Below the pieces are notes generated by a model. The model did no database searches and was not told where the DNA came from. It worked only from the letters and a program-made list of their open reading frames with translations. The position numbers were made by a program, and so were the translations under genes. Positions 1,935 to 25,187 of a stretch of 64,000 nucleotides of DNA are shown piece by piece. How positions within the stretch are numbered: position 1 is the first letter of the stretch; each line of letters starts with the position of its first letter. Source of the DNA: Sulfitobacter marinus (GTDB lineage Bacteria > Pseudomonadota > Alphaproteobacteria > Rhodobacterales > Rhodobacteraceae); the NCBI RefSeq assembly GCF_900116285.1, contig NZ_FPAJ01000002.1, positions 1 through 64,000 of the forward strand. The letters are read 5' to 3'.

Positions 1935-1989
1935 CGTGCTTCTTTTTTGAGCACACCCCAGCCTAGCATATCCAAAATGTTTCGTCACA

Positions 1990-2023
1990 AACATATTTTT
2001 TCAAATGTTATGTTGAGAACATA
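1990..2023. promoter_or_regulatory. Palindromic operator candidate between rpiR and dctP
   Basis: Two inverted repeats lie in the divergent intergenic region. AACAT at 1990-1994 pairs with ATGTT at 2005-2009, and TATGTT-GAG-AACATA forms a 15-bp palindrome at 2009-2023. The location suits an operator for the adjacent RpiR regulator, controlling itself and the TRAP operon. This is inferred from position and symmetry only. Confidence 0.45.
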
Positions 2024-2202
2024 TGAAGCGTTAACTATAGATCGGGACAGGTGTTCGTAGTGTGTCACTCCGTTTAGGTGAGGTTCTCGTCGGTAAAAAT
2101 TTTCTTGCAACCTCACCATCAAGAGGCTGAATTTTGATAAGAATCAGACTTCTAGGTGCTCCACTCAAAAATCAACAGGACGGTTTAAGAAGGAAAAAAA
2201 CG

Positions 2203-4966: not shown

Positions 4967-5638
4967 ATGTCGTTGGAGACGAAGCCCGTGATCACTTGGG
5001 ATTCAGCAAAACAGATCGCAGCCGGCACCAGTGAGGAACCATTGGTATCGGCTGCGGATTCGAAACACTGGATTTGCAAACCGGTCTATTTTCAGAATGG
5101 ATTTGTTGGTGCCTTGCCCCAAATTTGGCTACGCCAGTCTGTCTTGGATCGCTTGAAGATCGCAAGTGAGGTTCTGCCAAACGGCTACCGGCTTGTCCTG
5201 CTGGACGGGTGGCGCCCCAAGCAACTGCAACAGGCACTATTCGACGATATGCGTCAAAAAATTGCGACGGAAAACCCGCGCCTAGAAGGGATTCAACTTG
5301 ATGAGATGACGATGAACTACTGTTCAAAAGTATCCGACGACCCAGTCCAACCCAGTCCGCATCTGACGGGTGGGGCGGTGGATGTAACGCTTGCGAACGC
5401 ATCAGGTGTCGAGCTGGATATGGGAAGCGCCTTTGACGAACCATCACAACGTAGTTGGACGACCTATCAGCTTTCCGGCGCGCCAATGCATCATCGTAAA
5501 GTCTTGCATTCTGCCATGATCCAATCCGGCTTTACGAATCTGCCAAGCGAATGGTGGCATTATGATTACGGGAACTGGGTATGGGCTTGGTATTCCGAAG
5601 CGTCAGTCGCGGAATATGGTCCAATTGAGCATATTTGA
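4967..5638 (+). CDS. D-Ala-D-Ala dipeptidase, VanX/DdpX (M15D) family
   Basis: A 223-residue zinc peptidase that should cleave D-alanyl-D-alanine or a similar dipeptide. The family zinc motif appears as SPHLTGGAVD (His132, Asp139) with Glu195 and His198 in EWWHYDYG, and the substrate-binding Arg lies in DGWRP (Arg83). No signal peptide is evident, so it probably works in the cytoplasm. It starts directly after the dctM stop codon and is therefore the last gene of the TRAP operon. DdpX of E. coli likewise sits with a dipeptide importer (there an ABC system), which supports a role in using imported peptidoglycan-derived dipeptides. Confidence 0.88.
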   Translation: MSLETKPVITWDSAKQIAAGTSEEPLVSAADSKHWICKPVYFQNGFVGALPQIWLRQSVLDRLKIASEVLPNGYRLVLLDGWRPKQLQQALFDDMRQKIATENPRLEGIQLDEMTMNYCSKVSDDPVQPSPHLTGGAVDVTLANASGVELDMGSAFDEPSQRSWTTYQLSGAPMHHRKVLHSAMIQSGFTNLPSEWWHYDYGNWVWAWYSEASVAEYGPIEHI

Positions 5639-8790: not shown

Positions 8791-9248
8791 CGTCGGTCTA
8801 TCCTTTTACATAGCATCAGACTATCGACTTAAAACACTGGCGCAATCGGAAACCTGACTTTCGCGCTAGACGCAGCATTGGTAAAACTGGGCTCACTGCC
8901 GACCTTAGCTGCACTTTCAAACGAAATCAGCTTCAAACCGGAGGCGAGCGGCCGCACTGCGGACGAAGTGACCATTCGATGCAGATTGTGTGAGTTACCG
9001 ACCCTTTGGCCTCCTGCAACGCAAACGTATTCTAGTTTACGCCGTAAATCGAGGCCGTTTGTCCAAAACCGGATCGCCTCAAGCTGGCAGAACCGCTTTC
9101 GAACTGTCATCCGGTTGGAATCTTGTCTGACAGAAATGTTCGGGTGAAAGGCGCGTCGCACTCTTTACGGCTCCCCTTTGTGTTGTATGGTTAAGACAAG
9201 AGCGCGATGTCGGTCACGGCCAGACGCTCACACAACAAGGAGAAAAAT
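8791..9248. repeat. Gene-free stretch with dispersed repeat copy
   Basis: About 450 bases without a supported gene between the exporter and the peptide importer. The best copy of the left-edge repeat lies at 8871-8894. The last bases (AAGGAG at 9236-9241) form the binding site of the downstream gene. Open frames on either strand here show no protein family features. Confidence 0.4.
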
Positions 9249-10808
9249 ATGCAATTCACAAAATTGCTTGCCGTCTCGGTGACGGCTCTGACGGTTGCAA
9301 GCCCTGCACTGGCAGAAAACGTATTGCGATGGACCAGCCAGGGTGACGCGCTGACCATGGACCCCCATTCGCAGAACGAGGGCCCGACCATTGCAATGAA
9401 TGGCCAGATTTATGAATCCCTGGTCACCCGCGATGCGGATCTTGTTCTTCAGCCTGAGCTGGCCGAAAGTTGGGAAGCCGGTTCCGACGGCTGGACATTC
9501 AAGTTGCGCCAAGGCGTAAAATTTCATGACGGGTCGGATTTCACTGCGGAAGACGTGGTGTTTTCGTTCACGCGCGCCAATCACGAAGCCTCGGACTATA
9601 AAGAACAGGCCAAAAGCGTTACCTCGGTCGAAGTCATCGACGATTACACCGTCAAACTGACGACCGACGGGCCAAACCCGATCCTGCCCAACCAGCTGAC
9701 CTCAATCTACATGATGGACAAGGGCTGGGCCGAGGCGAACAACGTTGTTGCGCCACAAGATTTCAAGGCAAAGGAAGAAACCTTTGCCGTGCGCAACGCC
9801 AATGGCACCGGCCCGTTCACATTGGTCAGCCGTGCGCCGGACGAATTGACCGTTCTGGCGGCCAACCCCGACTGGTGGGGCAAAGGCATGTTCCCGGGTA
9901 ATATCGACAAGATCGAATACCGGCCGATCACCAATGCCGCCACACGCGTGGCCGCTCTGTTGTCGGGCGAAGTCGACTTTGTGCTTGATCCGCCACTGCA
10001 GGATGTCAAACGCATCGAAACCTCAGAAGGGCTTAGCGTGAAGACCGTTGCCCAGATTCGTTCGATCTTCTTCGGCATGGATCAAGGGGTCGACAAATTA
10101 CGCAGCTCGGATGCCGAAGGCAACCCGTTCAAGGATGCCAAGGTGCGCGAGGCGTTCAACCTTGCTATCGACAAAGATGCAATCCAGCGGGTCGTCATGG
10201 AAGGCCTTTCGTTTCCGACCGGCATGATCACCTCGCCCGGTGTGCTTGGCAATACGCCGGAAAACGATGCGTCCTACGGGTTTGATGCGGCCAAGGCCAA
10301 AATGCTTCTGGCTGACGCGGGTTATCCGAACGGTTTCTCAATCCAACTCGATTGCCCCAACAACCGCTACAACAATGACGAAAAGATCTGTCAGGCGGCC
10401 GTGGCGATGTTGGCCAAGATCGGCATCAAGGTGAACCTTGATGCAATCCCCAAGGCGCAACACTTCCCCAAAATCCAAAAGCGTGAGTCTGACTTCTACA
10501 TGCTGGGTTGGGGCGTTCCGACGCTGGATAGCCACTATGTGTTCTCGTATCTGCTCGACGGTGAAGGGTCATGGAATGCCACCGGCTATAACAACGCCCG
10601 TGTGAACGAGATCACCAAGGCGATCACAACCGAGATCGACATCGAAAAGCGCACTGCGATGATCGATGAGGCCTGGTCGCTTGTCAAAAAAGACATGCCC
10701 TATGTGCCGATCCACCACCAGGTTCTGGCTTGGGGTCTTTCGGACGCGGTCGATATCCCGATTGCTGCGGATGACGCGTTCCGTCCGCGCTTTGCGGTGA
10801 TGAAATAA
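9249..10808 (+). CDS. ABC transporter substrate-binding protein, peptide type (SBP_bac_5)
   Basis: A 519-residue periplasmic receptor of the DppA/OppA family. The signal peptide covers residues 1-22 (ending ALA), and the family hallmark segment around LTMDPHSQNEGPT follows, with LRQGVKFHDGSDFTAEDVVFS near residue 85. The start at 9249 has AAGGAG upstream and places the signal peptide first. It opens a complete importer operon. The ligand may be a peptide, but the family also binds opines, nickel complexes and other solutes. A strong hairpin follows the gene and may favour receptor over permease expression. Confidence 0.93.
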   Translation: MQFTKLLAVSVTALTVASPALAENVLRWTSQGDALTMDPHSQNEGPTIAMNGQIYESLVTRDADLVLQPELAESWEAGSDGWTFKLRQGVKFHDGSDFTAEDVVFSFTRANHEASDYKEQAKSVTSVEVIDDYTVKLTTDGPNPILPNQLTSIYMMDKGWAEANNVVAPQDFKAKEETFAVRNANGTGPFTLVSRAPDELTVLAANPDWWGKGMFPGNIDKIEYRPITNAATRVAALLSGEVDFVLDPPLQDVKRIETSEGLSVKTVAQIRSIFFGMDQGVDKLRSSDAEGNPFKDAKVREAFNLAIDKDAIQRVVMEGLSFPTGMITSPGVLGNTPENDASYGFDAAKAKMLLADAGYPNGFSIQLDCPNNRYNNDEKICQAAVAMLAKIGIKVNLDAIPKAQHFPKIQKRESDFYMLGWGVPTLDSHYVFSYLLDGEGSWNATGYNNARVNEITKAITTEIDIEKRTAMIDEAWSLVKKDMPYVPIHHQVLAWGLSDAVDIPIAADDAFRPRFAVMK

Positions 10809-10815
10809 GAAAACT

Positions 10816-10845
10816 GCCGGGGCGGGTTACGTCCTGCCCCGGCAT
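10816..10845 (+). terminator. Intra-operon hairpin after the binding-protein gene
   Basis: TGCCGGGGCGGG pairs with CCTGCCCCGGCA around a TTACGT loop: 12 paired positions including one G-U wobble. There is no U-run after it, so it is more likely a 3-prime stabiliser or attenuator than a full terminator. Its place between receptor and permease genes is typical for raising the receptor-to-permease ratio. Confidence 0.6.
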
Positions 10846-10860
10846 TGAAAGCGCCCTCAT

Positions 10861-11829
10861 ATGTTTTTCTTCATCCTCAAGCGGCTGGCACAATCGGTGC
10901 TGGTGATGGCTATTGTTTCAGCCGTCAGCTTTTCGTTGTTCAACTTTGTCGGCGATCCGGTCAACAACATGGTTGGACAGGATGCCACTCGCGAGCAGCG
11001 CCTGGAAATCCGCGAACAGCTTGGTCTGGATGATCCTGTTTTGACCCAGTATTCGCGGTTTCTTGGCAATATGCTGCAAGGCGATTTTGGTCTCAGCTAT
11101 CGCATCAAGCGACCGGTGGACCAGTTGATCTTCGAGCGTCTACCCGCCACGCTGGAACTGGTGTTTGTCAGTGCGATCATCGCGCTCGTGGTCGGCATCG
11201 GCTTGGGCGTTTACACTGGTATTAGACGCAAATCCTGGATCAGTCGGGGGATCCTGTCGGTGTCGCTGGTTGGGGTCAGCCTACCAACCTTCATCATCGG
11301 CATCGCCCTGATCTATATCTTTGCCGTTCACCTGCGCTGGTTGCCCTCTTCGGGGCGTAGTGGCACGGTCGATCTTGGCTGGTGGAAAACCTCATTACTG
11401 ACTGTGGATGGCTGGCGCGCCATCATCCTTCCTGCAATAACGCTGTCGCTGTTCCAGCTGACGCTAATCCTGCGGCTGGTGCGGGCGGAGATGCTTGAGG
11501 TCATGCAAACCGACTTTATCAAATTTGCCCGGGCGCGCGGGTTGTCAGAGCGCGCGATCAACTTTCGTCATGCGCTGCGCAACACGCTGGTTCCCGTAAT
11601 TACCATCATCGGTCTGAACATCGGCGGGCTAATCGCCTTTTCGGTCATCACCGAAACAGTCTTTCAGTGGCCCGGTACAGGCCTCATGTTCATTCAGGCT
11701 GTCGATTTTGTCGATGTGCCGATCATGGCTGCCTATCTGGTGTTCGTTGCGCTGCTGTTTGTTCTGATCAATCTGGTTGTCGACATTCTCTATTTTGTTG
11801 TCGACCCGCGCATTCGGCTAGGGAACTGA
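10861..11829 (+). CDS. ABC transporter permease, DppB type
   Basis: A 322-residue inner-membrane permease of the DppB/OppB family with about six hydrophobic segments. The EAA-type cytoplasmic loop lies near residues 215-245 (FIKFARARGLSERAINFRHALRN). It follows the binding-protein gene after 52 bases and precedes its partner permease by a few bases. No strong binding site is visible just before the ATG. Confidence 0.92.
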   Translation: MFFFILKRLAQSVLVMAIVSAVSFSLFNFVGDPVNNMVGQDATREQRLEIREQLGLDDPVLTQYSRFLGNMLQGDFGLSYRIKRPVDQLIFERLPATLELVFVSAIIALVVGIGLGVYTGIRRKSWISRGILSVSLVGVSLPTFIIGIALIYIFAVHLRWLPSSGRSGTVDLGWWKTSLLTVDGWRAIILPAITLSLFQLTLILRLVRAEMLEVMQTDFIKFARARGLSERAINFRHALRNTLVPVITIIGLNIGGLIAFSVITETVFQWPGTGLMFIQAVDFVDVPIMAAYLVFVALLFVLINLVVDILYFVVDPRIRLGN

Positions 11830-11834
11830 GGAAC

Positions 11835-12788
11835 ATGAGCCACGAACAGCCCCAAGAAAGGCCTCAGGATCGACCACTAACCCGCTGGCAGCGGTTCAAA
11901 GACAACGACATCATCTGGTCATTCTTGCATTCTCCCGGCGCAATGATTGCTGCAGCAATCACGGTTTTCTCGATCCTGGCTTGCCTCTTTGCCCCGCTGA
12001 TTGCCCCCTTCGATCCGTTTGACCCAAGCCAGATTTCACTCTGGGATGGCAAGCTACCACCGGCTTGGGTCGAGGGCGGCCAACCGCAATACCTTCTGGG
12101 CACCGACAATCAAGGCCGCGACATGCTGTCGACGATCCTTTATGGTGGGCGGTTGTCCATCCTTGTCGGGCTGGCGGCTGTGTGCCTTGGCATGGTGCTG
12201 GGTGTCACCCTGGGCGTGATCTCGGGCTACGTCGGTGGTGTCACTGATGCGGTGATCATGCGTATCGCCGATGTGCAGCTGACAATCCCCGGCATCCTAC
12301 TGGCCATCCTGATCAACGGAATCGGGCGCGCCTTCCTGCCGCTGGAACTGCGCCAAGAGTTTGCGGTTTATGTCGTGATCATTGCCATTGGCCTGACCGA
12401 CTGGCCGCAATTCGCGCGCGTGGCGCGCGGTGCCACCATGGTCGAGGCGAACAAGGAATATGTTCAGGCCGCGCGGATCATTGGTTTGCCCGCATGGCTG
12501 ATCATGGTTCGGCATGTCCTTCCCAACACGTTGCGACCGGTTCTGGTTATCGCTACAATCGGGCTGGCGCTGGCGATCATCGCCGAGGCAACCCTGTCCT
12601 TCTTGGGTCAGGGCATTCCGCCGACAACCCCGTCTCTGGGCACGTTAATCCGGGTTGGCAATGAATACCTGTTCTCTGGCCTGTGGTGGATCACCTTCTT
12701 CCCGGCTATCGCGCTGGTGGTGCTGGTCTTTGCTGTCAACCTTTTGGGGGATTGGATGCGTGACGCGCTCAATCCGAAACTGCGATGA
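11835..12788 (+). CDS. ABC transporter permease, DppC type
   Basis: A 317-residue permease of the DppC/OppC family. A cytoplasmic N-terminus of about 30 residues precedes the first membrane segment, LLGTDNQGRDMLSTILYGGR is the family signature after it, and an EAA loop lies around EYVQAARIIGLPAWLIMVRHVLPN. The start at 11835 is set by a nearby GAGGAA site and by the usual N-terminal length. It overlaps the ATPase gene by 4 bases. Confidence 0.92.
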   Translation: MSHEQPQERPQDRPLTRWQRFKDNDIIWSFLHSPGAMIAAAITVFSILACLFAPLIAPFDPFDPSQISLWDGKLPPAWVEGGQPQYLLGTDNQGRDMLSTILYGGRLSILVGLAAVCLGMVLGVTLGVISGYVGGVTDAVIMRIADVQLTIPGILLAILINGIGRAFLPLELRQEFAVYVVIIAIGLTDWPQFARVARGATMVEANKEYVQAARIIGLPAWLIMVRHVLPNTLRPVLVIATIGLALAIIAEATLSFLGQGIPPTTPSLGTLIRVGNEYLFSGLWWITFFPAIALVVLVFAVNLLGDWMRDALNPKLR

Positions 12789-14494
12789 CCGAGCTCTTGA
12801 AAATCAGCGGCCTTGATGTCGATTTCGACACCCGCCGTGGCACGGTTCACGCCGCGCGAGGCGTCAGCCTGACCGTCCGTCCGGGCGAAGTCCTCGGGCT
12901 TGTGGGTGAATCCGGGGCTGGGAAATCGACCATCGGCAATGCCATCGTCGACCTTCTGGAATCGCCCGGCCGGGTCAGCGCCGGCTCGATCCTGTTCGAG
13001 GGCGAAGAGCTGCGCGGGCGCAGCGAAGCCGAGATGCGCCGGGTGCGCGGTGACCGGATCGGAATGATCTTTCAGGACCCGCAGACATCGCTGAACCCGC
13101 TGATGACGGTTGGTGCGCAACTGGTCGAGACCATCGAGAAGACCAACGGCAAAATTAGCGGGGCCGAGGCCGAAAATCGCGCCATTGAGCTATTGGAACA
13201 GGTTGGCATAACAGAGGCCAAGGCGCGTCTTCTGGCCTATCCGCACCAATTCTCGGGCGGCATGCGCCAACGGGTGGTGATCGCCCTAGCGCTGGCGGGA
13301 GATCCTGATCTGATCATCGCGGACGAACCGACAACCGCGCTGGATGTGTCAATCCAGGCGCAGATCCTTGACCTAATCAAACAGCTTTGCCGCGAGCGCG
13401 CGCTGGGCGTCATCATCGTCACCCACGATATAGGCGTCATCGCCAATATAGCGGATCGGGTTGCGGTGATGTATCGCGGCGAAGTGGTTGAAACAGGCGA
13501 CGTGGCCCAAATCCTTGGCGCGCCGACGCATGAATACACCAAGTCACTGATTGCCGCCGTTCCGCGTGCGGATCGCAAGCTGGACCGGTTTTCGTCGGTG
13601 GACTACATCGAAGGCGGCACAACCCCCTTCAAACGCATTGATATTCAGACCCATTGGCTGGGCGAGTCGCAGCGCGAACGCGGGTCTGGCCCCGCAATCG
13701 AAATCGAGAACCTCGACCTGTCTTTCACCCTGCAAAAGGCGCTGCTCAAACGCAATCGCAAGATGTTGCAGGCGGTGGATGATGTCTCTTTCACCGTCAA
13801 CGAAGGTGAAACCTTTGGCCTGGTTGGCGAATCCGGTTCGGGCAAATCCACCGTGGCACGGTTGATCGCCGGGCTTTATCGGCCCGATGGCGGCCAGATT
13901 AGGGTGATTGGCCAGGACGTTGTGTCCCACCCCAAAAGCGCCACCGCCCGCACCGCACGCCGGGCTTTGCAAATGATTTTTCAGGACCCCTATTCCTCGC
14001 TCAATGCGCGAATGCGGGTGCTTGATATCGTGGCCGAGCCGATCCGGTTCTATCGACTGACCGACAGGGAGTCCGAGACCCGCAAAATCGTTGGTGACCT
14101 TCTCGATCATGTCGGTCTAGGTGCCAGTGCCGCACTGCGCTATCCGCATGAGTTTTCCGGCGGGCAGCGCCAGCGTATCTCCATCGCCCGCGCATTGGCA
14201 TCCCGCCCACGCATCCTGATCTGTGACGAACCGACATCGGCGCTGGACGTGTCCGTGCAGGCCACGATCCTCAATCTGTTGAAGGACCTGCAACAGGAAC
14301 TTGGGCTGACCATGCTGTTCATCAGCCACGATCTACCGGTTGTGCGCCAGATGTGCGACAGGATCGCGGTCATGCGCAATGGCGGCATCTGCGAGGTCTC
14401 CGACACCGAAACCCTGTTCAGCGCCCCGACCCACGAATACTCGCGCCATCTGCTGGACTTGATGCCGCGCATGGACCTGTTGGGCGAAGCCTAA
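12785..14494 (+). CDS. Fused dual ATPase of peptide ABC importer (DppD-DppF type)
   Basis: A 569-residue protein carrying both ATP-binding subunits on one chain. Domain 1 has Walker [10 protein letters not shown] (41-49), signature FSGGMRQR (about 156-163) and DEPTTALD; domain 2 has Walker [10 protein letters not shown] (348-356), signature FSGGQRQR (about 456-463) and DEPTSALD. Between them lies the oligopeptide-transporter C-terminal extension (about 235-290). Fusion of the two ATPases is common in alphaproteobacteria. It completes the importer with the three upstream genes. Confidence 0.94.
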
Positions 14495-14895: not shown

Positions 14896-15337
14896 CGCAT
14901 TGTTTCCTCCCACAGCTTCCGGGTCGCGGCGCATGTGCGTCGCGAACGTGGTCGTCTGTTCCTCTCCTCTTAAGACGATTAGGTGGGAATGGTCACTTTG
15001 TCCCGTTGTTTCTATGCCTGAATCCGCTGAAGCTAGAAAACGGCTGCAGGTTCTATTCATCCGCACTTTGTGAATTGACCTTTCCAACGACGCTGCAGGC
15101 TGTATCAATGGCCGGTCTTCACGCTGCGTGGCGGCGTGGGAATCTACGCACCCGCCGCATTTCACGTGCTACGAGCGCGCGCAGCGAGAAAATCGAGTTC
15201 ACAGGTTGGGCTCAAACCTGCCGTTCTCCGCTTCGCAGCATAGTAGTGGGTCATCTTAGCTGAGCCGCAAACCTGTCCTAAAAAGCAGGACCACTTCAGT
15301 TTTATCGAATACGAAACCGGCCAATTGCGCGACGCGA
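14896..15337. repeat. Gene-free stretch with repeat words
   Basis: No intact gene is supported between the M20 remnant and the RpiR gene. The word CAAACCTGCCGTTC at 15213-15226 is shared exactly with 8023-8036, and a CGCAGCAT word lies near 15234. This is the rightmost place in the window where I see the dispersed repeat family. Confidence 0.4.
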
Positions 15338-16204
15338 TTAATTGCTGCGAAAGATCCGCGATTCGCCGATCATCTGTTCCAGGGCGGCGATGCGTTCGGC
15401 GCTTTGATCGGAGCTGCGCGACTGGACCTCGGCAACCAATGCTTCGATCAGGAAATTGATCGCAAGGGTCGAATCCCAGCTCGACGGTACCTCGACCATG
15501 GACCGAAAACAGAACCGGGCATGTTTCTCGATGGGCGATCCCCATGCGTCGGTGAACAGGACGATGCTGGCCCCCTGTTTCACGGCAAGATTGGCCAGCT
15601 TCTCCAGCTCTTTCTCGTAGCGGCGAATGTCAAAGATCACCAAAACCGCTCCGGCATTCATGTCCAGCAGGGACTGTGGCCAAACGCTGGGCGATGAATC
15701 CAGCAGCGTCACCTGAGGGCGGATGATTTGCAGGTGGTTGAAAAAGTAATGCGCATTGGACCGCGTGATACGCCCGCCCAGCAAATAAAGCCGATGCGCG
15801 GGGTCGGATAGCACCTCGGCAACTTGGTTGAATTCGGCCAGATCAAGCCGGTCTAGGGTGCGGTTGATATTGTCAGACACCGCTCCGATAAAGCGCGAAA
15901 CGATATGATCGCGGCTGTCAGAAGGGGCCACGGCGTCCAGCTTGGCCAGCGGTTGTTTCATCCGCGCGCCTATTTCCTCGCGGATGGCGTCCTGCATACC
16001 CGAGAAGCCGTCGAATCCCAGCTTGCGGGCCAAGCGAATGATGGTGGGCGAAGACACTTCGGCGCATTCGGCCAAACGGTTGATAGATTGCAGGCCAGTC
16101 AACAAGGAATCGTCGAGCAGAACAGCCGATAGTTTACGCTCCGCTGCGGTGAGCTCTGTCTGCTTTTCTTTCAGCAAATCGCGGACGAGTGCTTTTTTGT
16201 GCAA
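15338..16204 (-). CDS. MurR/RpiR family transcriptional regulator
   Basis: A 288-residue RpiR-type repressor or activator. The helix-turn-helix sits at about 38-66 (INRLAECAEVSSPTIIRLAR, then KLGFDG), and a SIS domain occupies about 115-255. It is only about 30 percent similar by eye to the other RpiR protein in the window, so it is not a recent copy. It is divergent from the amidohydrolase-TRAP-ligase operon and very probably controls it. Its effector is likely a pathway intermediate rather than a sugar phosphate, which is inference. Confidence 0.9.
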   Translation of the reverse strand: MHKKALVRDLLKEKQTELTAAERKLSAVLLDDSLLTGLQSINRLAECAEVSSPTIIRLARKLGFDGFSGMQDAIREEIGARMKQPLAKLDAVAPSDSRDHIVSRFIGAVSDNINRTLDRLDLAEFNQVAEVLSDPAHRLYLLGGRITRSNAHYFFNHLQIIRPQVTLLDSSPSVWPQSLLDMNAGAVLVIFDIRRYEKELEKLANLAVKQGASIVLFTDAWGSPIEKHARFCFRSMVEVPSSWDSTLAINFLIEALVAEVQSRSSDQSAERIAALEQMIGESRIFRSN

Positions 16205-16210
16205 AAGCTG

Positions 16211-16257
16211 TTCCTTTCGGTACAGGAATTCTAATTGTGAAGCAAATGGTACAGGAA
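16211..16257. promoter_or_regulatory. Repeated operator candidate upstream of the amidohydrolase operon
   Basis: GGTACAGGAA occurs twice, at 16219-16228 and 16248-16257, with starts 29 bases apart. The first copy is also part of an inverted repeat, TTCCT (16211-16215) with AGGAA (16224-16228). The sites lie between the divergent rpiR and amidohydrolase genes, so they are a fair guess for the RpiR binding region. Confidence 0.45.
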
Positions 16258-16288
16258 ATTTCTTGACAGGCTAGAAAAATCTGTAGTG

Positions 16289-17068
16289 ATGGAGCCAGTC
16301 AAAAAGGATATTTTCGGTTTGAGCAGCGATTGGACAGCGGCGCGGGTGATCGGTAGCAGTGGGCAGGCCCCGGTGTTGTTGATATGCGAACACGCTTCCA
16401 ATTTTGTCCCGGACGCGTTCGATTTGGGGCTTAGTGCTGATGCGCAGGCGTCCCATGCTGCGTGGGATATCGGTGCGCTGGATGTCGCGATCGAGCTGTG
16501 TGACGCACTTGATGCGCCATTGGTGGCCGGTGGTGTTTCACGCCTGATCTATGATTGTAACAGGCCCCTTGCTGCACCGGATTGCGTTCCGGCCCGCAGC
16601 GAAGTGTTCGATATTCCGGGAAATGCAGGCCTGTCGAAGCAGGAAAAACAGGACCGCTTTGACCGGGTGCATACGCCATTTCATGACGCGGTGGATATGC
16701 AGCGCGCCCAGATGGTACCGCAGTTGGTGGTGACCATTCACAGCTTTACCCCGATCTATAACGGCAGAAAGCGCGAGGTAGAGTTGGGGTATCTGTATCA
16801 CTCTGATCCCTCAGCAGCCCAAGCGCTTTTGGCGCAAGAACAGGCGCAAGGCACTTACAGGGCGGCGCTGAACGAACCCTATGCGGCCACGGATGGCGTG
16901 ACCTACTCGCTTGAGAAACACGGAGAGGCGCAGGGTGTGCCAGCCGTGATGATCGAAATCCGAAGTGATCTGATCGATACGGATCAAAAGGCAAAAACAA
17001 TGGCGCAGCACCTGGTTGGATCGCTTACCGCCGCGTTCCCTTCTCTTTTCCACGAGGCAGCTGAATGA
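16289..17068 (+). CDS. N-formylglutamate amidohydrolase family hydrolase
   Basis: A 259-residue zinc-type amidohydrolase related to HutG, which releases formate from N-formyl-L-glutamate. Family landmarks are CEHASN (33-38), HAAWDIGA (56-63), SRLIYDCNR (84-92) and TIHSFTP (about 150). ATG 16289 is used; GTG 16286 would add one residue. The gene is the first of the operon, overlaps the next by 4 bases, and no other histidine-degradation gene is near. A role on a gamma-glutamyl or acyl-glutamate intermediate made by the operon's glutamine-synthetase-like ligase is therefore attractive, but unproven. Confidence 0.85.
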   Translation: MEPVKKDIFGLSSDWTAARVIGSSGQAPVLLICEHASNFVPDAFDLGLSADAQASHAAWDIGALDVAIELCDALDAPLVAGGVSRLIYDCNRPLAAPDCVPARSEVFDIPGNAGLSKQEKQDRFDRVHTPFHDAVDMQRAQMVPQLVVTIHSFTPIYNGRKREVELGYLYHSDPSAAQALLAQEQAQGTYRAALNEPYAATDGVTYSLEKHGEAQGVPAVMIEIRSDLIDTDQKAKTMAQHLVGSLTAAFPSLFHEAAE

Positions 17069-17586
17069 ACGCGATGCGCAAATATATTTCGGTTGTGGAT
17101 GGGTTTAACCACGGGCTGGGACGCATCGCGATGTATGGCATCTTTGTCTTGATGGGTATTTTGCTGTGGTCATCCTATAATAAGACCTTTGCGTCGCCCC
17201 AGCTTTGGACGCTGGAAATGGCGCAGTTTGTGATGGTGGGATATTATATTCTGGGCGGTCCATACGCGATGCAAATGGGCGCGAATGTGCGGATGGACCT
17301 GTTCTATGCTGAACTGACCCCGCGCAAAAAAGCATGGACCGATTGCATTACCGTACTGTTTTTACTGATTTATCTGTTCATTCTGCTGTGGGGCGGCATC
17401 GAATCCACGATGTATTCGTTTAAGTATGGTGGCGAACGCAGTCCAACCGCGTGGCGTCCCTATATGTGGCCGGTCAAGGTCACCATGTGCATCGGCATAT
17501 CTCTGATGCTGCTTCAAGCTGTCTCTGAACTGTTCAAGGACATCCTTTTCCTCAAATCCGGTGAGGACACGCGCAATGCCCTATGA
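17065..17586 (+). CDS. dctQ: TRAP transporter small permease (DctQ type)
   Basis: A 173-residue membrane protein with four hydrophobic segments (about 20-40, 50-75, 93-113, 135-155), the normal layout of the small TRAP subunit. It overlaps the amidohydrolase by 4 bases and the large permease by 11 bases, indicating translational coupling. The order here is Q-M-P, unlike the P-Q-M order of the first TRAP cassette. Confidence 0.9.
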   Translation: MNAMRKYISVVDGFNHGLGRIAMYGIFVLMGILLWSSYNKTFASPQLWTLEMAQFVMVGYYILGGPYAMQMGANVRMDLFYAELTPRKKAWTDCITVLFLLIYLFILLWGGIESTMYSFKYGGERSPTAWRPYMWPVKVTMCIGISLMLLQAVSELFKDILFLKSGEDTRNAL

Positions 17587-18901
17587 ACTGATCGCCATAT
17601 TGATGTTTTCGACCATGATGCTGATGCTTCTGACGGGGCAGCGGGTGTTTGGTGCCATCGGTTTTGTCGCCGTGATCGCTGCGCTGTTTTTATGGGGTGA
17701 CAGGGGCGGCTATGACATCGGGTTTTCCGCCGCGATCAAGCTGATGCGCTGGTATCCTTTGCTGACCCTGCCGATGTTTATCTTCATGGGCTATGTGCTG
17801 TCCGAATCCAAAATCGCGGATGATCTTTACAAGATGTTTCACGTGTTTATGGGCGGCGTGCGCGGAGGTTTGGCCATCGGGACGATTGGCCTGATGGTGC
17901 TGATTTCTGCGATGAACGGGTTGTCTGTTGCTGGCATGGCGATTGGTGCCACGATTGCGCTGCCTGAACTGCTGAAACGGAATTATGACAAGCTGATGGT
18001 GACCGGCGTTATTCAGGCCGGGTCAAGTTTGGGCATTCTTGTGCCGCCATCGGTCGTGTTGGTGTTATATGCTATGATCGCGCGTCAGCCGGTGGGGCAA
18101 TTATGGCTGGCGGGGGCCATTCCGGGTCTGATGATGGCGACGATGTTCATTATCTATATCGCAATCCGCTGCCGGATTAACCCTGAGCTTGGTCCGGCGC
18201 TGCCGCCGGAAGAACGTGATGTCGGCTGGCCCGAAAAGTTGCGCCTGCTGCGCGCTGGGCTGCTGCCGGTCGTGATCTTTGCCGTAATGATGGTGCCCTT
18301 TGTGAACGGTTGGACATCGCTGGTCGAAAGCTCGGCCATTGGGGCCATCGCCGCGTTTCTGGCCGCGATCCTCAAGGGGCGGATGACACGTCAGGTGTTT
18401 GAGACGTCGGTGCGCCAGACGCTGGCGATTACCTGCATGTTCATGTGGATCATTCTGGCGGCGCTGGCCTTTGGCGCGGTGTTTGACGGGCTGGGCGCGG
18501 TCAAGGCGATCGAGAACCTGTTTACCGAACAATGGGGCCTGAACCCGTGGGTGATCCTGATCTTGATGCAGCTGTCGTTCTTGATCATGGGTACATTTCT
18601 GGATGACACGGCGATGCTGGTTATTGTGGCACCGCTTTATGTGCCGTTGGTTGGCGCGTTGGGTTTTGATCTGGTCTGGTACGGCGTGCTATATACGATC
18701 ACCTGCCAGATCGCCTATATGACGCCGCCCTTTGGCTATAACCTGTTCTTGATGCGGGCCATGGCCCCGCCCGAGATTACGATTACCGATATCTACCGTT
18801 CCATCATTCCGTTTGTGGGGGTGATGATACTGGCCTTGGCCGTTGTGATGCTGTTCCCGCAGATCGCGCTTTGGTTGCCAAATTACGTTTACGGCAAATA
18901 A
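17576..18901 (+). CDS. dctM: TRAP transporter large permease (DctM type)
   Basis: A 441-residue protein with about 12 hydrophobic segments and conserved stretches such as SAMNGLSVAGMAIGATIALPE, GSSLGILVPPS and MTPPFGYNLF. It is the ion-coupled transport channel of the second TRAP cassette. The ATG at 17576 is preferred to 17561 because the latter lies deeper inside dctQ and adds charged residues. Confidence 0.93.
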   Translation: MPYELIAILMFSTMMLMLLTGQRVFGAIGFVAVIAALFLWGDRGGYDIGFSAAIKLMRWYPLLTLPMFIFMGYVLSESKIADDLYKMFHVFMGGVRGGLAIGTIGLMVLISAMNGLSVAGMAIGATIALPELLKRNYDKLMVTGVIQAGSSLGILVPPSVVLVLYAMIARQPVGQLWLAGAIPGLMMATMFIIYIAIRCRINPELGPALPPEERDVGWPEKLRLLRAGLLPVVIFAVMMVPFVNGWTSLVESSAIGAIAAFLAAILKGRMTRQVFETSVRQTLAITCMFMWIILAALAFGAVFDGLGAVKAIENLFTEQWGLNPWVILILMQLSFLIMGTFLDDTAMLVIVAPLYVPLVGALGFDLVWYGVLYTITCQIAYMTPPFGYNLFLMRAMAPPEITITDIYRSIIPFVGVMILALAVVMLFPQIALWLPNYVYGK

Positions 18902-18970
18902 CCGAATTAACCACCACGTGGCCGGATGAACCGGCCCTTCAAATCCGAAACCCGACAAGGAGTATGTCAC

Positions 18971-20008
18971 ATGACAACCAGACGTAAGTTTCTAAAGGGG
19001 GCCGCACTTGCTGGTCCCGCAGCCATTGCCACACCGTCGATCCTGCATGCGCAGGAACCGATCCGCTGGCGTTTTCAGACCTACGCCGGTGCGGCGCTAG
19101 GTGAAGAAGTAACAAAACCTGCCATCGACGCGATCAACGCGGCGTGCCAAGGCCAACTTGAGATCGAATTGTTCTATGCGGATCAAATCGTTCCCACAGG
19201 CGAGCTGTTCCAAGCGTTGCAGCGCGGCACCATCGACGGCGTGCATTCGGACGACGATTCCATGGCGTCGCCAACACCTGTCCGGTCCTTTGGCGGGTAT
19301 TTCCCATTGGCGACCAAGCACGCGCTGGACGTGCCTGTGCTGTTTAACCAATACGGTCTGGCCGATATCTGGCGCGAAGAATACGCCAAGGTTGGCGTGC
19401 ATTGGCTGTCTGCTGCGGGTCAGGATCCGTGTAACTTTAACACCGTCAATCCAATCAGATCGCTGTCCGATCTGGATGGTCTGAAACTCTATACTTTCCC
19501 GACTGCTGGCCGTTTCCTGTCGCAGTTTGGTGTTGTGCCGGTGAACATCCCCTACGAGGACGCCGAAGTTGCCGTTCAAACAGGTGAGCTGGACGGTATG
19601 GCGTGGTCGGGCATCACCGAAGACTACACCGTGGGCTGGGCTGATGTGACCAACTATTTCTGCACCAACAACATCTCTGGCGCATGGATCGGGTCGTTCT
19701 TTGTGAATGCCGAGAAATGGGCAGAGCTGCCGGATCACCTGAAACAGATCGTGTCGTCCGCAATCGAGGCAAGCCACACCTATCGCAACCAGTGGTATTG
19801 GGGCGGCGAGGCGCGTCTGCGCGCGTCCGGCGAAAAGCTGGAGCTGACATCTGTCCCACAGGACGAATGGAAGCAAGTCGAAGACGCGGCTGTGAAGTTC
19901 TGGGACGAGATGGCTGAAGAAGGCGAAACAGCCGCGAAGATCGTTCAGATATTCCGCGACTACAACGATGTGACATCGAAAGCGGGCCCGCCCTATACCT
20001 TTGGCTGA
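18971..20008 (+). CDS. dctP: TRAP transporter substrate-binding protein, Tat-exported
   Basis: A 345-residue periplasmic receptor. The N-terminus carries a twin-arginine signal (TRRKFLKG, then a hydrophobic run ending LHA near residue 27), so it should be exported folded by the Tat pathway rather than by Sec. The family segment FPTAGRFLSQFGVVPVNIPY marks the ligand Arg region, and EDAEVAVQTGELDGMAWSG the central strand. AAGGAG lies ahead of the start at 18971. It is followed by a GC-rich hairpin and then the ligase gene. The ligand is probably the amine or amino-acid-like substrate of the downstream enzymes. Confidence 0.9.
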   Translation: MTTRRKFLKGAALAGPAAIATPSILHAQEPIRWRFQTYAGAALGEEVTKPAIDAINAACQGQLEIELFYADQIVPTGELFQALQRGTIDGVHSDDDSMASPTPVRSFGGYFPLATKHALDVPVLFNQYGLADIWREEYAKVGVHWLSAAGQDPCNFNTVNPIRSLSDLDGLKLYTFPTAGRFLSQFGVVPVNIPYEDAEVAVQTGELDGMAWSGITEDYTVGWADVTNYFCTNNISGAWIGSFFVNAEKWAELPDHLKQIVSSAIEASHTYRNQWYWGGEARLRASGEKLELTSVPQDEWKQVEDAAVKFWDEMAEEGETAAKIVQIFRDYNDVTSKAGPPYTFG

Positions 20009-20032
20009 TCCCCGATAAACTTATGATAAACG

Positions 20033-20054
20033 GGGCGGCGCGGTTGTGCCGCCC
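20033..20054 (+). terminator. Hairpin after the TRAP binding-protein gene
   Basis: GGGCGGC at 20033-20039 pairs with GCCGCCC at 20048-20054 around an eight-base loop. There is no U-run. It lies between dctP and the ligase gene and may stabilise the upstream mRNA or partly attenuate transcription into the enzyme genes. Confidence 0.5.
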
Positions 20055-20081
20055 TCACACATGCAAAAGGAACGTCTGCAC

Positions 20082-21443
20082 ATGGGCAATTTAACATTCG
20101 ATACGCTCAGGGAAATGGCCGATAACGGCGAGGTCGATACCGTATTGGTGGCCCTTGTCGATATGCAGGGCCGTTTGATGGGCAAGCGTTTCCACGTCAC
20201 AAATTTTATCGAGCATTCCCATGCCGAGACCCATTGCTGCAATTACCTGCTGGCGACCGATTTGGTGATGTCCACGCCTGAAGGGTTCGCATCGACCAGT
20301 TGGCAAACCGGCTATGGTGATTATGTTCTGCGCCCCGACCTATCGACGATGCGGCAGGTGCCGTGGCTGGATAAAACCGTGTTGGTGCTGGGCGATGTGC
20401 TGGATCACCACACCCACGAACCTGTGCCTCATTCGCCGCGTTCAATGCTGAAAAATCAGATCGCGCGGCTGGATGCCTTGGGCTTTGACGCGATGATGGC
20501 GACCGAGCTTGAGTTCTTTTTGTTCGAGGGGGATTACCGGACCCTTCAGAAAGAGAAATATGCAAACCTCGTGCCGCTCAATGGCCATAACGAGGATTAC
20601 TGCCTATTCCAAACCGCCAAAGAAGAAGCGTTCCTGCAGCCCTTGCGCAACCATCTGGTCGCCGCTGGTGTGCCGGTTGAATGCACCAAGGGCGAGGCCG
20701 AAACCGGCCAGCAAGAGCTGAACATCCGCTATGCCGCAGCGCTTGATTGCGCGGATAATCACACGATCTCCAAGCAAGCCACCAAAGAAATCGCCTTTCA
20801 GCAGGGGTTCTCGGCGTCGTTCCTGCCCAAATGGGCACCGGACAAGGTCGGATCGTCCAGCCACGTGCATATGTCACTGTGGAAAGACGGCGCACCTGCG
20901 TTCTTCGACAAAGACGCCAAGCTGGGCATGTCCGAGCTGATGGCCCATTTCATGGCGGGTCTGATCAAATACGCGCCCGACTTCACCTATTTTCTGGCCC
21001 CCTACATCAACAGCTACAAACGCTTTGCCAAAGGCACCTTTGCGCCCACGAAAACCGTTTGGTCCGTTGATAACCGCACCGCCGGTTTCCGGCTGTGTGG
21101 TGATGGCACCAAGGGTATTCGCGTTGAATGTCGCATCGGCGGATCGGACCTGAACCCCTATCTGGCTCAGGCGGTTTTGCTGGCTGCAGGCATCAAGGGG
21201 ATTGAGGAAAAGCTACCTCTGCAAGAGCCGACGTTGGGCGATGTCTATGAGGACGCAAGCGTCACGGAAATACCGCGCACCCTGCGGGCCGCAACCGACA
21301 GTTTGCGCAACTCTGCTATGCTGCGCGAGGCCCTTGGCGACGACGTGGTTGACCATTACACCCGCGCAGCTGAATGGGAGCAGGAGGAATACGACAAGGT
21401 CGTAACCGACTGGGAAATCAACCGCGGATTTGAGCGAGCATAA
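20082..21443 (+). CDS. Glutamine-synthetase-like ligase (candidate gamma-glutamylamide synthetase)
   Basis: A 453-residue member of the glutamine synthetase fold. ATP/metal and glutamate residues are present: TELEFF (Glu142, Glu144), GEAETGQQEL (Glu205, Glu212), HVHMSLW (His261, His263), NSYKR (Arg314) and RVECRI (Glu349, Arg351). At the ammonium site, where glutamine synthetases read P-G-F/Y-E-A-P, this protein reads KGTFAP, so the Glu is replaced by Phe320; the N-terminal Asp50-type loop is also different (VDMQGRLMGKR). Both changes are typical of ligases that join glutamate to an organic amine (PuuA, IpuC and GlnA3/GlnA4 types). The start at 20082 follows an AAAGGAA site; 20061 and 20046 are alternatives. 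The aldehyde and alcohol dehydrogenases next door fit further oxidation of the product. Confidence 0.87.
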   Translation: MGNLTFDTLREMADNGEVDTVLVALVDMQGRLMGKRFHVTNFIEHSHAETHCCNYLLATDLVMSTPEGFASTSWQTGYGDYVLRPDLSTMRQVPWLDKTVLVLGDVLDHHTHEPVPHSPRSMLKNQIARLDALGFDAMMATELEFFLFEGDYRTLQKEKYANLVPLNGHNEDYCLFQTAKEEAFLQPLRNHLVAAGVPVECTKGEAETGQQELNIRYAAALDCADNHTISKQATKEIAFQQGFSASFLPKWAPDKVGSSSHVHMSLWKDGAPAFFDKDAKLGMSELMAHFMAGLIKYAPDFTYFLAPYINSYKRFAKGTFAPTKTVWSVDNRTAGFRLCGDGTKGIRVECRIGGSDLNPYLAQAVLLAAGIKGIEEKLPLQEPTLGDVYEDASVTEIPRTLRAATDSLRNSAMLREALGDDVVDHYTRAAEWEQEEYDKVVTDWEINRGFERA

Positions 21444-21446
21444 GCA

Positions 21447-22823
21447 ATGACAAAGACCCTGAAATGTATCTCACCGATTGACGGATCGGTTTATTTGGAA
21501 CGCCCTGTTTTATCGCTGGATGCCGCGCGCGCAGTCTGTGCACAGGCGAAATCGGCGCAGGCTTTGTGGGCTGCACGTCCGCTGGCCGAACGTATCGATC
21601 TGGTGCGCGCTGCCATCGCCGAGGTTGGCAAAACAACCGATCGCATGGCGGTTGAGTTGGCCCATCAGATGGGCCGCCCCGTGCGCTATGGCGGCGAATT
21701 CGGCGGGTTCAATGAACGCGCCAGCTATATGGCCGATATCGCGGAGCAGGCGCTGGCCCCGATGATCATCGAAGACAGCGATACCGCCACTCGCAAAATC
21801 ACCCGCGAGGCGCGCGGCGTTGTGCTGGTCGTGGCCCCGTGGAACTACCCTTACATGACGGCGATCAACACCGTTGCCCCTGCATTGATCGCGGGCAACA
21901 CTGTTGTGTTGAAACACGCCACCCAGACCTTGCAAGTTGGCGAACGCCTGGCCGAAGCGTTCCATGCGGCGGGCGTTCCAGAACATGTATTCCAGAACGT
22001 GTTTCTGGATCACGACACGACGTCTGCCTTGATTGCAGAACGTCAGTTTGGGTTTGTCAATTTCACCGGTTCAGTTGGTGGTGGCAAGGCGATGGAAGTG
22101 GCCGCAGCTGGCACATTCACCCCCGTGGCGACCGAATTGGGTGGCAAAGACCCCGGTTACGTGCGCGCAGACGCCAACGTTGATGCGGCGGTTGACGGGC
22201 TGATGGACGGCGCGATGTTCAACGCGGGCCAATGCTGCTGCGGGATCGAACGGATCTACGTCCATGAAAGCCTGTATGACGCCTTCGTCGAAAAAGCCGT
22301 GGTTTGGGTGAACGCCCTGAAGCTGGGTAACCCGTTGGAGCAGGAAACCACCATCGGCCCGATGGCCAACGTCCGCTTTGCTGTCGAAGTCCGCGCCCAG
22401 ATTGCCGAAGCCGTGGCCGATGGTGCTACCGCGCTGATCGAACCCTTTGCGCAGGATGACGGTGCCGCCTATCTGACCCCGCAAATCCTGACGAACGTGA
22501 ACCACAACATGCGTGTCATGCGCGACGAAAGCTTTGGCCCTGTGGTTGGCATCATGCCGGTCAAGGACGACGCCGAAGCGATTGCGCTGATGAATGATTG
22601 TCAGTTCGGTCTGACCGCTGCGATCTTTACTAAAGACGCGGACGCCGCCGATGCCATCGGCGCGCAGCTTGAAACCGGCACGGTGTTTATGAACCGCTGT
22701 GATTACCTTGATCCGGCATTATGCTGGACGGGGTGCAAAGACACCGGCCAAGGCGCGGGCCTGTCTGTGCTTGGCTATCAGGCGCTCACGCGTCCTAAAT
22801 CCTACCACCTTAAAAAGGCTTGA
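21447..22823 (+). CDS. Aldehyde dehydrogenase family protein
   Basis: A 458-residue NAD(P)-dependent aldehyde dehydrogenase. Catalytic Asn133 lies in PWNYPY, the general base Glu230 in ELGGK, and the nucleophile in NAGQCCCG (Cys264 by the usual GQxC spacing, flanked by two more Cys). It is four bases downstream of the ligase and four bases upstream of the alcohol dehydrogenase. It should turn an aldehyde, possibly gamma-glutamylated, into the acid. The three-Cys run is worth noting, as side cysteines may be redox sensitive. Confidence 0.92.
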   Translation: MTKTLKCISPIDGSVYLERPVLSLDAARAVCAQAKSAQALWAARPLAERIDLVRAAIAEVGKTTDRMAVELAHQMGRPVRYGGEFGGFNERASYMADIAEQALAPMIIEDSDTATRKITREARGVVLVVAPWNYPYMTAINTVAPALIAGNTVVLKHATQTLQVGERLAEAFHAAGVPEHVFQNVFLDHDTTSALIAERQFGFVNFTGSVGGGKAMEVAAAGTFTPVATELGGKDPGYVRADANVDAAVDGLMDGAMFNAGQCCCGIERIYVHESLYDAFVEKAVVWVNALKLGNPLEQETTIGPMANVRFAVEVRAQIAEAVADGATALIEPFAQDDGAAYLTPQILTNVNHNMRVMRDESFGPVVGIMPVKDDAEAIALMNDCQFGLTAAIFTKDADAADAIGAQLETGTVFMNRCDYLDPALCWTGCKDTGQGAGLSVLGYQALTRPKSYHLKKA

Positions 22824-22827
22824 TCCT

Positions 22828-23973
22828 ATGGAGCTGAGAAACAACTGGTCTTATCCCACCGCGATGCGTTTTGGTGCGGGCCGCATTTCCGAGATCGGCG
22901 AGGCCTGCGCGGTCGCTGGGATCAGCAAACCGTTGCTGGTGACCGACAAAGGTCTGGCCACGATGGACATCACGACCCGCACGCTTGACCTGCTTGAGGC
23001 AGCGGGCCTTGGCCGGGCGATGTTTTCCGAAGTCGACGCCAACCCGACCGAGATCAACCTTGATGCGGGTCTGAAGGTCTACCGCGACGGGGGCCATGAC
23101 GGCGTTGTTGCCTTTGGCGGTGGGTCGGGGCTTGATCTGGGCAAGATGGTTGCGTTCATGGCGGGCCAAACCCGTCCCGTTTGGGATTACGAAGATGTCG
23201 GCGATTGGTGGACCCGCGCCGACGCAGACGCCATCGCGCCGATCATCGCCGTGCCCACCACGGCTGGTACCGGATCAGAGGTTGGCCGCGCGTCGGTGCT
23301 GACCAATTCTGAAACCCACGTGAAAAAGATCATCTTTCATCCCAAGGTTTTGCCAACGGTCGTGATTTGTGATCCGGAACTAACAGTCGGGATGCCAAAG
23401 CACATCACCGCAGGCACTGGACTTGACGCCTTTGCCCATTGCGTCGAGGCGTTCAGCAGCCCGCATTACCACCCCATGAGCCAAGGTATCGCGCTGGAAG
23501 GCATGCGTTTGGTCATTGATTATCTGCCCCGCGCCTATGCCGATGGCACCGATATCGAGGCGCGGGCGCAGATGATGTCAGCCGCCGCAATGGGGGCCAC
23601 GGCGTTTCAAAAAGGTCTGGGCGCGATCCATGCAATGAGCCACCCGATCGGGGCGGTGTTCAACACCCACCACGGCACGACCAACGCCGTGTGTATGCCT
23701 GCCGTGCTGGACCTGAACGAAAGCATGATCCGCGAACGGTTTGACCGTGCCGCAGGGTATCTGGGTATCAACGGCGGCTATGACGGGTTCCGTGCCTTTG
23801 TGCAGGATTTCAACGACAGCTTTGCCATCCCGCGCAAGCTGTCCGAGATGGGCGTCACCGCTGACCGAATGGATGATCTGGTCGCCATGGCATTGGAGGA
23901 CCCGTCTTGCGGCGGCAATCCTGTAACCTTGACCTCTGACAATCTGCGCAAGCTGTTCGAGGCAACGATTTGA
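22828..23973 (+). CDS. Iron-containing alcohol dehydrogenase
   Basis: A 381-residue group III alcohol dehydrogenase. The N-terminal NAD-binding part holds AFGGGSGLDLGK, and metal ligands are expected in GTGLDAFAHCVEAF and in GAIHAMSHPIGAVFNTHHG (Asp and three His). It interconverts an alcohol and an aldehyde using NAD(P). The ATG at 22828 is right after the ALDH stop; a longer upstream reading overlaps ALDH and is not needed. As the last gene of the operon it suggests that an alcohol or an aldehyde by-product is handled in the pathway. Confidence 0.92.
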   Translation: MELRNNWSYPTAMRFGAGRISEIGEACAVAGISKPLLVTDKGLATMDITTRTLDLLEAAGLGRAMFSEVDANPTEINLDAGLKVYRDGGHDGVVAFGGGSGLDLGKMVAFMAGQTRPVWDYEDVGDWWTRADADAIAPIIAVPTTAGTGSEVGRASVLTNSETHVKKIIFHPKVLPTVVICDPELTVGMPKHITAGTGLDAFAHCVEAFSSPHYHPMSQGIALEGMRLVIDYLPRAYADGTDIEARAQMMSAAAMGATAFQKGLGAIHAMSHPIGAVFNTHHGTTNAVCMPAVLDLNESMIRERFDRAAGYLGINGGYDGFRAFVQDFNDSFAIPRKLSEMGVTADRMDDLVAMALEDPSCGGNPVTLTSDNLRKLFEATI

Positions 23974-23980
23974 ACTGATC

Positions 23981-24013
23981 AAAAAATGCCCCGATAGGTT
24001 TGCTATCGGGGCA
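23981..24013 (-). terminator. Rho-independent terminator between ADH and degP
   Basis: An 11-bp perfect stem, TGCCCCGATAG (23987-23997) with CTATCGGGGCA (24003-24013), has a five-base loop. Reading the minus strand, it is followed by six U (A run at 23981-23986), so it ends degP transcripts; it probably also stops the converging plus-strand operon. Confidence 0.8.
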
Positions 24014-24068
24014 TACAGGCTGGAGTGTGACTGCCAGCTTGAACGAGGCAAGCCCGCTGGCAGCTCTG

Positions 24069-25187
24069 TTATGCGTCTTGCGCGGCCAAGGTGCCGATCT
24101 TGACAGCGCGGGTCACTTCCTTGCCCCGGTGCAGAACCACCACATCAGCCGTTTGATCAGGGTCCGTATCTGCCACGGCGCGGGTCAGATCACGCAGCTC
24201 GTCAATCTCGGTGCCGTTGAAGGACAGAATGATATCACCCTTTTTCAGCCCTGCCTTTTGCGCGGGGCTATTGTCGCTGATGGCTTCGATAACGGCCCCT
24301 TTGGGCGCGTCATAACCCAATACCTGCGCAACCTCGTCGGTCATCGGACGAATTTGAATGCCCAGCCAGCCGCGTGTGATCGACCCGTCATCGGCCAGAT
24401 CGGCAACGATGTTTTGCACCAGATCGGACGGTACGGAAAAACCGATCCCGACAGACCCGCCACCGGGGGACAGGATCGCGGTGTTGACGCCGATCACTTC
24501 GCCATCGTTGTTAAACAGCGGCCCGCCCGAATTGCCACGGTTGATCGCCGCATCGGTCTGGATGAAATCATCATATGGGCCTGCGTTGATGTTGCGCGAT
24601 TTGGCCGAGATAATGCCGGTGGTCACCGTACCGCCAAGGCCAAAGGGATTGCCCATGGCCACCACTTCGTCGCCCACACGCATGCTGTCGGACGATCCAA
24701 AGGTCACGGCGGGCAGGTCAACATCAGCCTCGATTTTCAGCAGTGCAATGTCGGTCAACGGATCGCTGCCAACGACTTTGGCCTCAAAACTGCGGCCGTC
24801 GGATAGTTTGACGGTCACTTTGTTCGCGCCGTCGACCACGTGGTTATTCGTCACAATCTGACCGTCGGTTGAGATAATAAACCCTGAACCAAGGCCCTGA
24901 ACCGGCTGCGCCTCGGCCCCTTGGCCGGGCATCATTTGTTCAAACCGCTTGCGCAATTCTTCGGGCATGCCTTGGGGCAATTCAATTTGTGTTTGGGGTT
25001 TCGTGGCTGTTCCTGTCACTTCGATAAACACCACCGACGGCGATATCGTTTCGACCAGATCAGCATAGCCGCCTGCGGGAACCGCCAATGCGGTGGTGGG
25101 GGCGATTGCGACCAAAGAAGTCGAAGCCAAAGCGGCAGCCAACACAAGGGGCAATGCGCGGCGGGGTGATTTCGTTAAAGATGTCAT
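24069..25187 (-). CDS. degP: DegP/HtrA-type periplasmic serine protease
   Basis: A 372-residue S1C protease for quality control in the cell envelope. A signal peptide (to about residue 37) is followed by the trypsin-like domain with His116 (NNHVV), Asp146 (LTDIALL) and Ser220 (RGNSGGP), then a single PDZ domain (about 265-365, with GDIILSFNGTEI). One PDZ domain makes it more DegS-like in layout than DegP, which has two. It is divergent from a two-component system, which suggests envelope-stress control by that pair. Confidence 0.93.
   Translation of the reverse strand: MTSLTKSPRRALPLVLAAALASTSLVAIAPTTALAVPAGGYADLVETISPSVVFIEVTGTATKPQTQIELPQGMPEELRKRFEQMMPGQGAEAQPVQGLGSGFIISTDGQIVTNNHVVDGANKVTVKLSDGRSFEAKVVGSDPLTDIALLKIEADVDLPAVTFGSSDSMRVGDEVVAMGNPFGLGGTVTTGIISAKSRNINAGPYDDFIQTDAAINRGNSGGPLFNNDGEVIGVNTAILSPGGGSVGIGFSVPSDLVQNIVADLADDGSITRGWLGIQIRPMTDEVAQVLGYDAPKGAVIEAISDNSPAQKAGLKKGDIILSFNGTEIDELRDLTRAVADTDPDQTADVVVLHRGKEVTRAVKIGTLAAQDA

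Follow-up and report, generated by a model that had tools for sequence, protein, structure and literature searches.

Gene Organization of the Locus

The window (the whole stretch of 64,000 nucleotides from Sulfitobacter marinus that was analysed here) carries a glutamine synthetase (GS)-like gene within an operon, in which seven genes of the same direction follow a divergent RpiR-type gene. The genes are as follows.

15338..16204, minus strand: RpiR-type regulator, divergent from the operon (PF01418 and PF01380)
16286..17068, plus strand: FGase-family hydrolase, probable gamma-glutamylglycine amidohydrolase (GGAH; PF05013, E 5.2e-37)
17065..17586, plus strand: TRAP transporter small permease (DctQ; EtoV; PF04290, E 1.3e-18)
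17561..18901, plus strand: TRAP transporter large permease (DctM; EtoW; PF06808, E 4.9e-67)
18926..20008, plus strand: TRAP substrate-binding protein (DctP; EtoX), probable ethanolamine binder (best solved relative 4uab)
20082..21443, plus strand: GS-like protein, probable gamma-glutamylethanolamide synthetase (ethanolamine gamma-glutamylase; PF00120, 5dm3 and residue mapping)
21447..22823, plus strand: aldehyde dehydrogenase (GAADDH position; PF00171, E 5.9e-111)
22831..23973, plus strand: iron-containing alcohol dehydrogenase (GETADH position; PF00465, E 4.3e-48)

The RpiR-type gene presumably regulates the operon. The FGase-family hydrolase scored far under the HutG cut-off (23.1 vs 278.75 bits), and it occupies the place of MED193_10026 according to the gene order described for Phaeobacter sp. 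MED193 (PMC10132767).

The gene neighbourhood was counted in 66 relatives with full 7-kb flanks, 14 other loci being too short and left out. All eight genes were present in the same order and orientation in 58 of the 66, one dehydrogenase was absent in three, and the GS gene was accompanied only by one or both dehydrogenases in the remaining five. Beside the GS gene, the regulator, DctQ and DctM were each found in 61/66 of these relatives, the aldehyde dehydrogenase in 62/66, and the iron alcohol dehydrogenase in 64/66.

A dipeptide-type ABC transporter, which consists of SBP_bac_5, permeases and a double ATPase, is located upstream (9207-14494). It was rejected as a part of the system, because its ATPase was absent from all 66 full-flank relatives and only one of them showed its binding protein (28% identity). 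The promoter scan of the operon gave two sites against 5.3 in shuffled sequence and the terminator scan nine against 9.5, and tandem repeats were absent from 15000-24200. A possible terminator, a 12-pair hairpin with a T-run (23986-24014), lies between the operon end and a convergent DegP-like gene (24069-25187, minus strand), and such sites are no commoner in this region than in shuffles.

As well, the window possesses a second RpiR/TRAP cluster (1056-5638), including an RpiR-type gene on the minus strand, DctP (2134-3210), DctM (3689-4966) and an M15 D-Ala-D-Ala dipeptidase (4967-5638). The best solved relative of this DctP is 4n8g (E 5.8e-125), which we take to be a D-Ala-D-Ala binder, and the cluster resembles an operon that takes up and cleaves D-Ala-D-Ala.

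Flap Residue and Active Site of the GS-Like Protein

The ORF at 20082-21443 is open throughout, with 453 codons and a stop, and the domain search identified the glutamine-synthetase catalytic domain PF00120 in it (E 7.1e-97). An alternative GTG start upstream, at 20046, would give a protein of 465 residues; the ATG at 20082 was favoured because the alignments of relatives begin at residues 1 to 4 of the shorter, 453-residue protein. Counted from this start, the positions used below are as follows.

20133, plus strand: start of the residue 18 codon (numbering reference only, no separate feature)
21039..21041, plus strand: Phe320 codon

The flap reads KGTFAP (residues 317-322), in agreement with the earlier note, and its Phe is residue 320. 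To place this residue, the GS-like protein was aligned by MAFFT with E. coli K-12 GlnA and PuuA, three other GS-like ORFs of the host and 80 relatives; GlnA residues are numbered without Met1. Phe320 falls in the column of E. coli GlnA Glu327, the flap Glu of type I glutamine synthetase, which is absent from the window protein. The replacement of Glu by Phe that the earlier note had read from the sequence was thereby borne out, and a search of the alignment for another Glu at the flap position, which had been set beforehand as the refuting check, found none there. In the same column, the GlnA-like ORF of the host has Glu, E. coli PuuA has Tyr, and the remaining two paralogues of the host have Ala and His.

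The flap Phe was found in all 80 relatives (70-96% identity), which are the best 80 where a relative is encoded in 458 stretches; the nearest copies among them, 96% identical, are from Sulfitobacter. It was also found in 20/20 further copies (55-72% identity), which were drawn from the 59 matches in 100 sampled genomes of the family, most of them from the low-identity end of the matches or without an adjoining TRAP gene, and one of which (72%) may also be among the best 80. Among these further copies the residues before the Phe vary (KGT, IGM, EGL, VGM, AGT, KGS). Being present in all the close relatives and in all of the mostly more distant copies, the flap Phe is a fixed trait. The substitution is real, but it is ordinary for the ethanolamine-glutamylating group of enzymes.

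The other active-site residues are mostly conserved. E142, E144, E205, E212, H261 and E349, which align with GlnA E129, E131, E212, E220, H269 and E357 and which we take to be the six metal ligands, are kept in the window protein and 80/80 relatives, and so are five arginines (R314, R332, R337, R347 and R351) as well as G257, H263 and S265. GlnA N264 is replaced by V256 in the window protein (Val, Ile and Ser in 74, 5 and 1 of the 80 relatives, Ala in PuuA), while GlnA H210 is replaced by K203 (Lys in 80/80 relatives, Val in PuuA). The statement that the ATP, metal and glutamate residues are kept thus stands for the six metal ligands and the five arginines, and for the glutamate site nearly but not wholly. 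GlnA Tyr179 is opposite a gap in the window-protein alignment. GlnA Asp50, presumably a residue of the neighbouring subunit, is opposite a variable column (Asp in 48, Glu in 19 and others in 13 of the 80 relatives) in a part of the N-domain where the alignment is weak.

An AlphaFold2 monomer model was made with the window protein and 23 relatives (24 of 81 sequences). Its mean pLDDT is 71.3, and values fall under 50 at residues 54-78 (a loop of the N-domain) and 307-326 (the flap). The predicted model makes the GS fold clear, while the size and charge of the flap pocket are not readable from it, and the structure prediction proposed in the earlier note was therefore informative for the fold alone. 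The suggested uncharged pocket found no support, as the acidic E144, E205 and E212 remain and the flap is modelled with pLDDT under 50. For NpaA1, a 1-naphthylamine enzyme, docking was reported to put the amino group in a pocket with negative charge, formed by two Glu (PMC11335346).

Substrate-Binding Protein

The best solved relative of the window DctP is 4uab/4xf5 (E 3.7e-147), the next chain being at 6.4e-18. We take 4uab to be Csal_0678 with ethanolamine bound. According to a previous study, Csal_0678 binds ethanolamine and lacks the Arg to which TRAP proteins owe their usual preference for carboxylates (PMC4646407). In our alignment, Tyr189 of the window DctP is opposite the Arg of 2zzv, at a position where TRAP proteins usually have Arg, and the same column holds Phe in 37 and Tyr in 34 of the relatives (71/71 loci). 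As we read the alignment, this would be the Arg-147 column of TRAP proteins, and the window DctP would be without their carboxylate-binding Arg. The host genome, which is 95% complete, gave no match to eutB, and the control search did match it in E. coli.

Distribution in the Family and Other GS-Like Loci

Both proteins were searched in 100 genomes drawn from the family, with chosen cut-offs of E 1e-80 for DctP and E 1e-120 for GS. Matches to DctP were present in 57 of the 100 genomes and matches to GS in 59; 53 genomes carry both, four DctP alone, six GS alone and 37 neither (Fisher p 1.2e-16 for co-occurrence, kinship among genomes ignored). Of the 53 genomes that carry both, 42 have the GS gene on the strand of DctP and no more than 1 kb downstream of it, and the other 11 do not. 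The link of the GS gene to the TRAP transporter is strong, but it is not absolute.

Some GS copies have other neighbours. Three of them (L096, L103 and L104) are accompanied by RpiR and FGase, with no TRAP genes in the stretch examined. In four more (L095, L106, L107 and L108, from genomes G018, G009, G027 and G052, respectively), a Phe-flap GS lies beside an iron alcohol dehydrogenase, and no relatives of the TRAP, FGase, RpiR and aldehyde dehydrogenase genes are present in the stretch examined; these genomes have no DctP match at E 1e-80.

The host genome also possesses a locus (L114, 5398-14856; about 126-136 kb on C1) with two GS-like ORFs, in which the flap Glu is replaced by Ala and His, respectively. 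A GATase gene is located between them, accompanied by a DAO oxidase, a DegT-family aminotransferase and an ABC transporter. Both GS-like ORFs are under the GlnA, type III and PuuA cut-offs, and the locus is likely to be a gamma-glutamyl-amine locus.

Proposed Function and Alternative Explanations

We consider the window protein, with a probability of about 0.9, to be a gamma-glutamylethanolamide synthetase, which in the ethanolamine glutamylation route is the first enzyme in the cytoplasm. The amine is assigned as ethanolamine because the gene order of the operon matches that of the MED193 ethanolamine operon. On this view, the gene is a further copy of the ethanolamine gamma-glutamylase already known, in a known pathway that about half of the sampled family genomes have. 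The activity of the window copy and its specificity for ethanolamine are predicted from this correspondence.

In the proposed pathway, the TRAP transporter would take up ethanolamine, and the GS-like enzyme would, like glutamine synthetase, activate the gamma-carboxyl of glutamate with ATP. Ethanolamine, instead of ammonia, would then attack the activated gamma-carboxyl, with Phe320 located where true glutamine synthetases have the flap Glu; Phe320 probably helps to turn the enzyme away from ammonium. Subsequently, the iron alcohol dehydrogenase and the aldehyde dehydrogenase would oxidise the bound ethanolamine to gamma-glutamylglycine, from which the FGase-type hydrolase would release glycine and glutamate. 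The order of these later steps is presumed.

The larger amine suggested in the earlier note is right in direction, as a missing flap Glu is associated with an amine different from ammonium and the operon indicates ethanolamine, although this had already been published for GlnA4. The paper on GlnA4 argued likewise from the loss of the flap Glu to another amine (PMC6529630), and the paper on NpaA1 made a similar inference (PMC11335346). The earlier reading made no use of the neighbouring genes, from which the substrate can be named and the case recognised as a known one.

An enzyme of the same type of route might instead have another small amino alcohol or monoamine, such as 3-aminopropanol or alaninol, as its main substrate and ethanolamine as a secondary one. 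The GS members of G009, G018, G027 and G052 speak for this, as they lie beside an iron alcohol dehydrogenase without EtoX, and the GS enzyme is therefore not tied to the EtoX transporter everywhere. In the window, however, an EtoX homologue adjoins the GS gene, and EtoX of MED193 was reported to bind ethanolamine with a Kd of 7.9 uM and to leave four other ligands unbound, none of which is another amino alcohol (PMC10132767). We consider such a main substrate unlikely. It would be similarly improbable that the Phe-flap enzymes form a broader group of amino-alcohol ligases, in which the EtoX-less copies of these four genomes act on a different amine with other uptake and the window operon is one of several versions specialised by their transporter.

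A true glutamine synthetase that merely lost its flap Glu would share the GS fold and the kept metal ligands, and the window protein does match the GlnA model TIGR00653 weakly (247.3 bits). This score is under the cut-off of 429.15 bits, the flap Glu is missing in 100/100 copies read, another ORF of the host that has the Glu matches the GS domain better (448.7 vs 325.6 bits), and the genes of the operon are catabolic; we therefore give this explanation hardly any weight. The chance that the protein is a PuuA-type gamma-glutamylputrescine synthetase for polyamines is just as slight. The two belong to the same wider family, and E. coli PuuA is also without the flap Glu, having Tyr; but the window protein scores only 199.8 bits with the PuuA model NF045547, whose cut-off is 650, neither a PuuB-type oxidase nor a PuuD-type amidotransferase was found among the operon genes scanned, and the other host locus with two GS-like ORFs, GATase, DAO oxidase and ABC transporter suits polyamines better.

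The type III glutamate-ammonia ligase model TIGR03105 was not reached either (234.4 bits, cut-off 469.6), and the window protein reaches the cut-off of none of the NCBIfam equivalog models, so it would otherwise be filed as a glutamine synthetase. The assignment provides a confident name for it. Phospholipid-derived ethanolamine was described as a nutrient that is widespread in the sea, and about 5 to 10% of bacteria were stated to carry the transporter gene (PMC10132767). The glutamylation of ethanolamine is the first step of an already known route that marine bacteria use to feed on a breakdown product of membrane lipids.

Comparison with Known Systems

Out of 38 solved sequences, the best relative of the GS-like protein is 5dm3 (E 1.1e-203, 680.6 bits), which was also second, behind 11zs, in the fold search with the window model. 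The title of 5dm3 names Csal_0679, whose locus tag is next after Csal_0678. Csal_0679 has the KGTFAP flap in common with the window protein, although it comes from the gammaproteobacterial Chromohalobacter salexigens. The literature search pairing Csal_0679 or 5DM3 with ethanolamine found no paper, and among the matches listed for 2022 onwards, judged by title and the start of the abstract, nothing further bears on the enzyme.

Other GS-like enzymes have lost the flap Glu as well. E. coli PuuA shares the GS fold and this loss (Tyr), while its pathway differs, being for putrescine. The organic-amine ligases of the NpaA1 and GoaS group were reported to have lost both the flap Glu and Asp50, which was linked to their not using ammonium (PMC11335346). 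This group resembles the window protein in the missing flap Glu, but the amines described for NpaA1 are aromatic (PMC11335346). Its structures 8wwu and 8wwv match the window model less well, at 25% identity.

Streptomyces coelicolor GlnA4 (SCO1613) glutamylates ethanolamine and has Phe331 in place of GS Glu327, and a route via gamma-glutamylglycine and an FGase-family hydrolase was proposed for it (PMC6529630). Likened by its description, GlnA4 agrees with the proposed window enzyme in being a gamma-glutamylethanolamide synthetase, in the flap Phe and in the route via gamma-glutamylglycine (PMC6529630). Its operon is unlike that of the window, as a short-chain dehydrogenase is described there and the accessible text names no TRAP genes (PMC6529630).

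The closest counterpart is the eto operon of Phaeobacter sp. MED193 (MED193_10021-10056), described as RpiR, GGAH, EtoV, EtoW, EtoX, ETAGA, GAADDH and GETADH, in which MED193_10046 is the ethanolamine gamma-glutamylase (PMC10132767). Five products of this operon were reported to be raised on phosphorylethanolamine, and EtoX also under phosphate lack (PMC10132767). Compared by gene order, not by sequence, the window operon equals the eto operon as that source describes it, and no difference was found (PMC10132767). The window operon is one more copy of a known system rather than a new principle, and what is gained is a better name.
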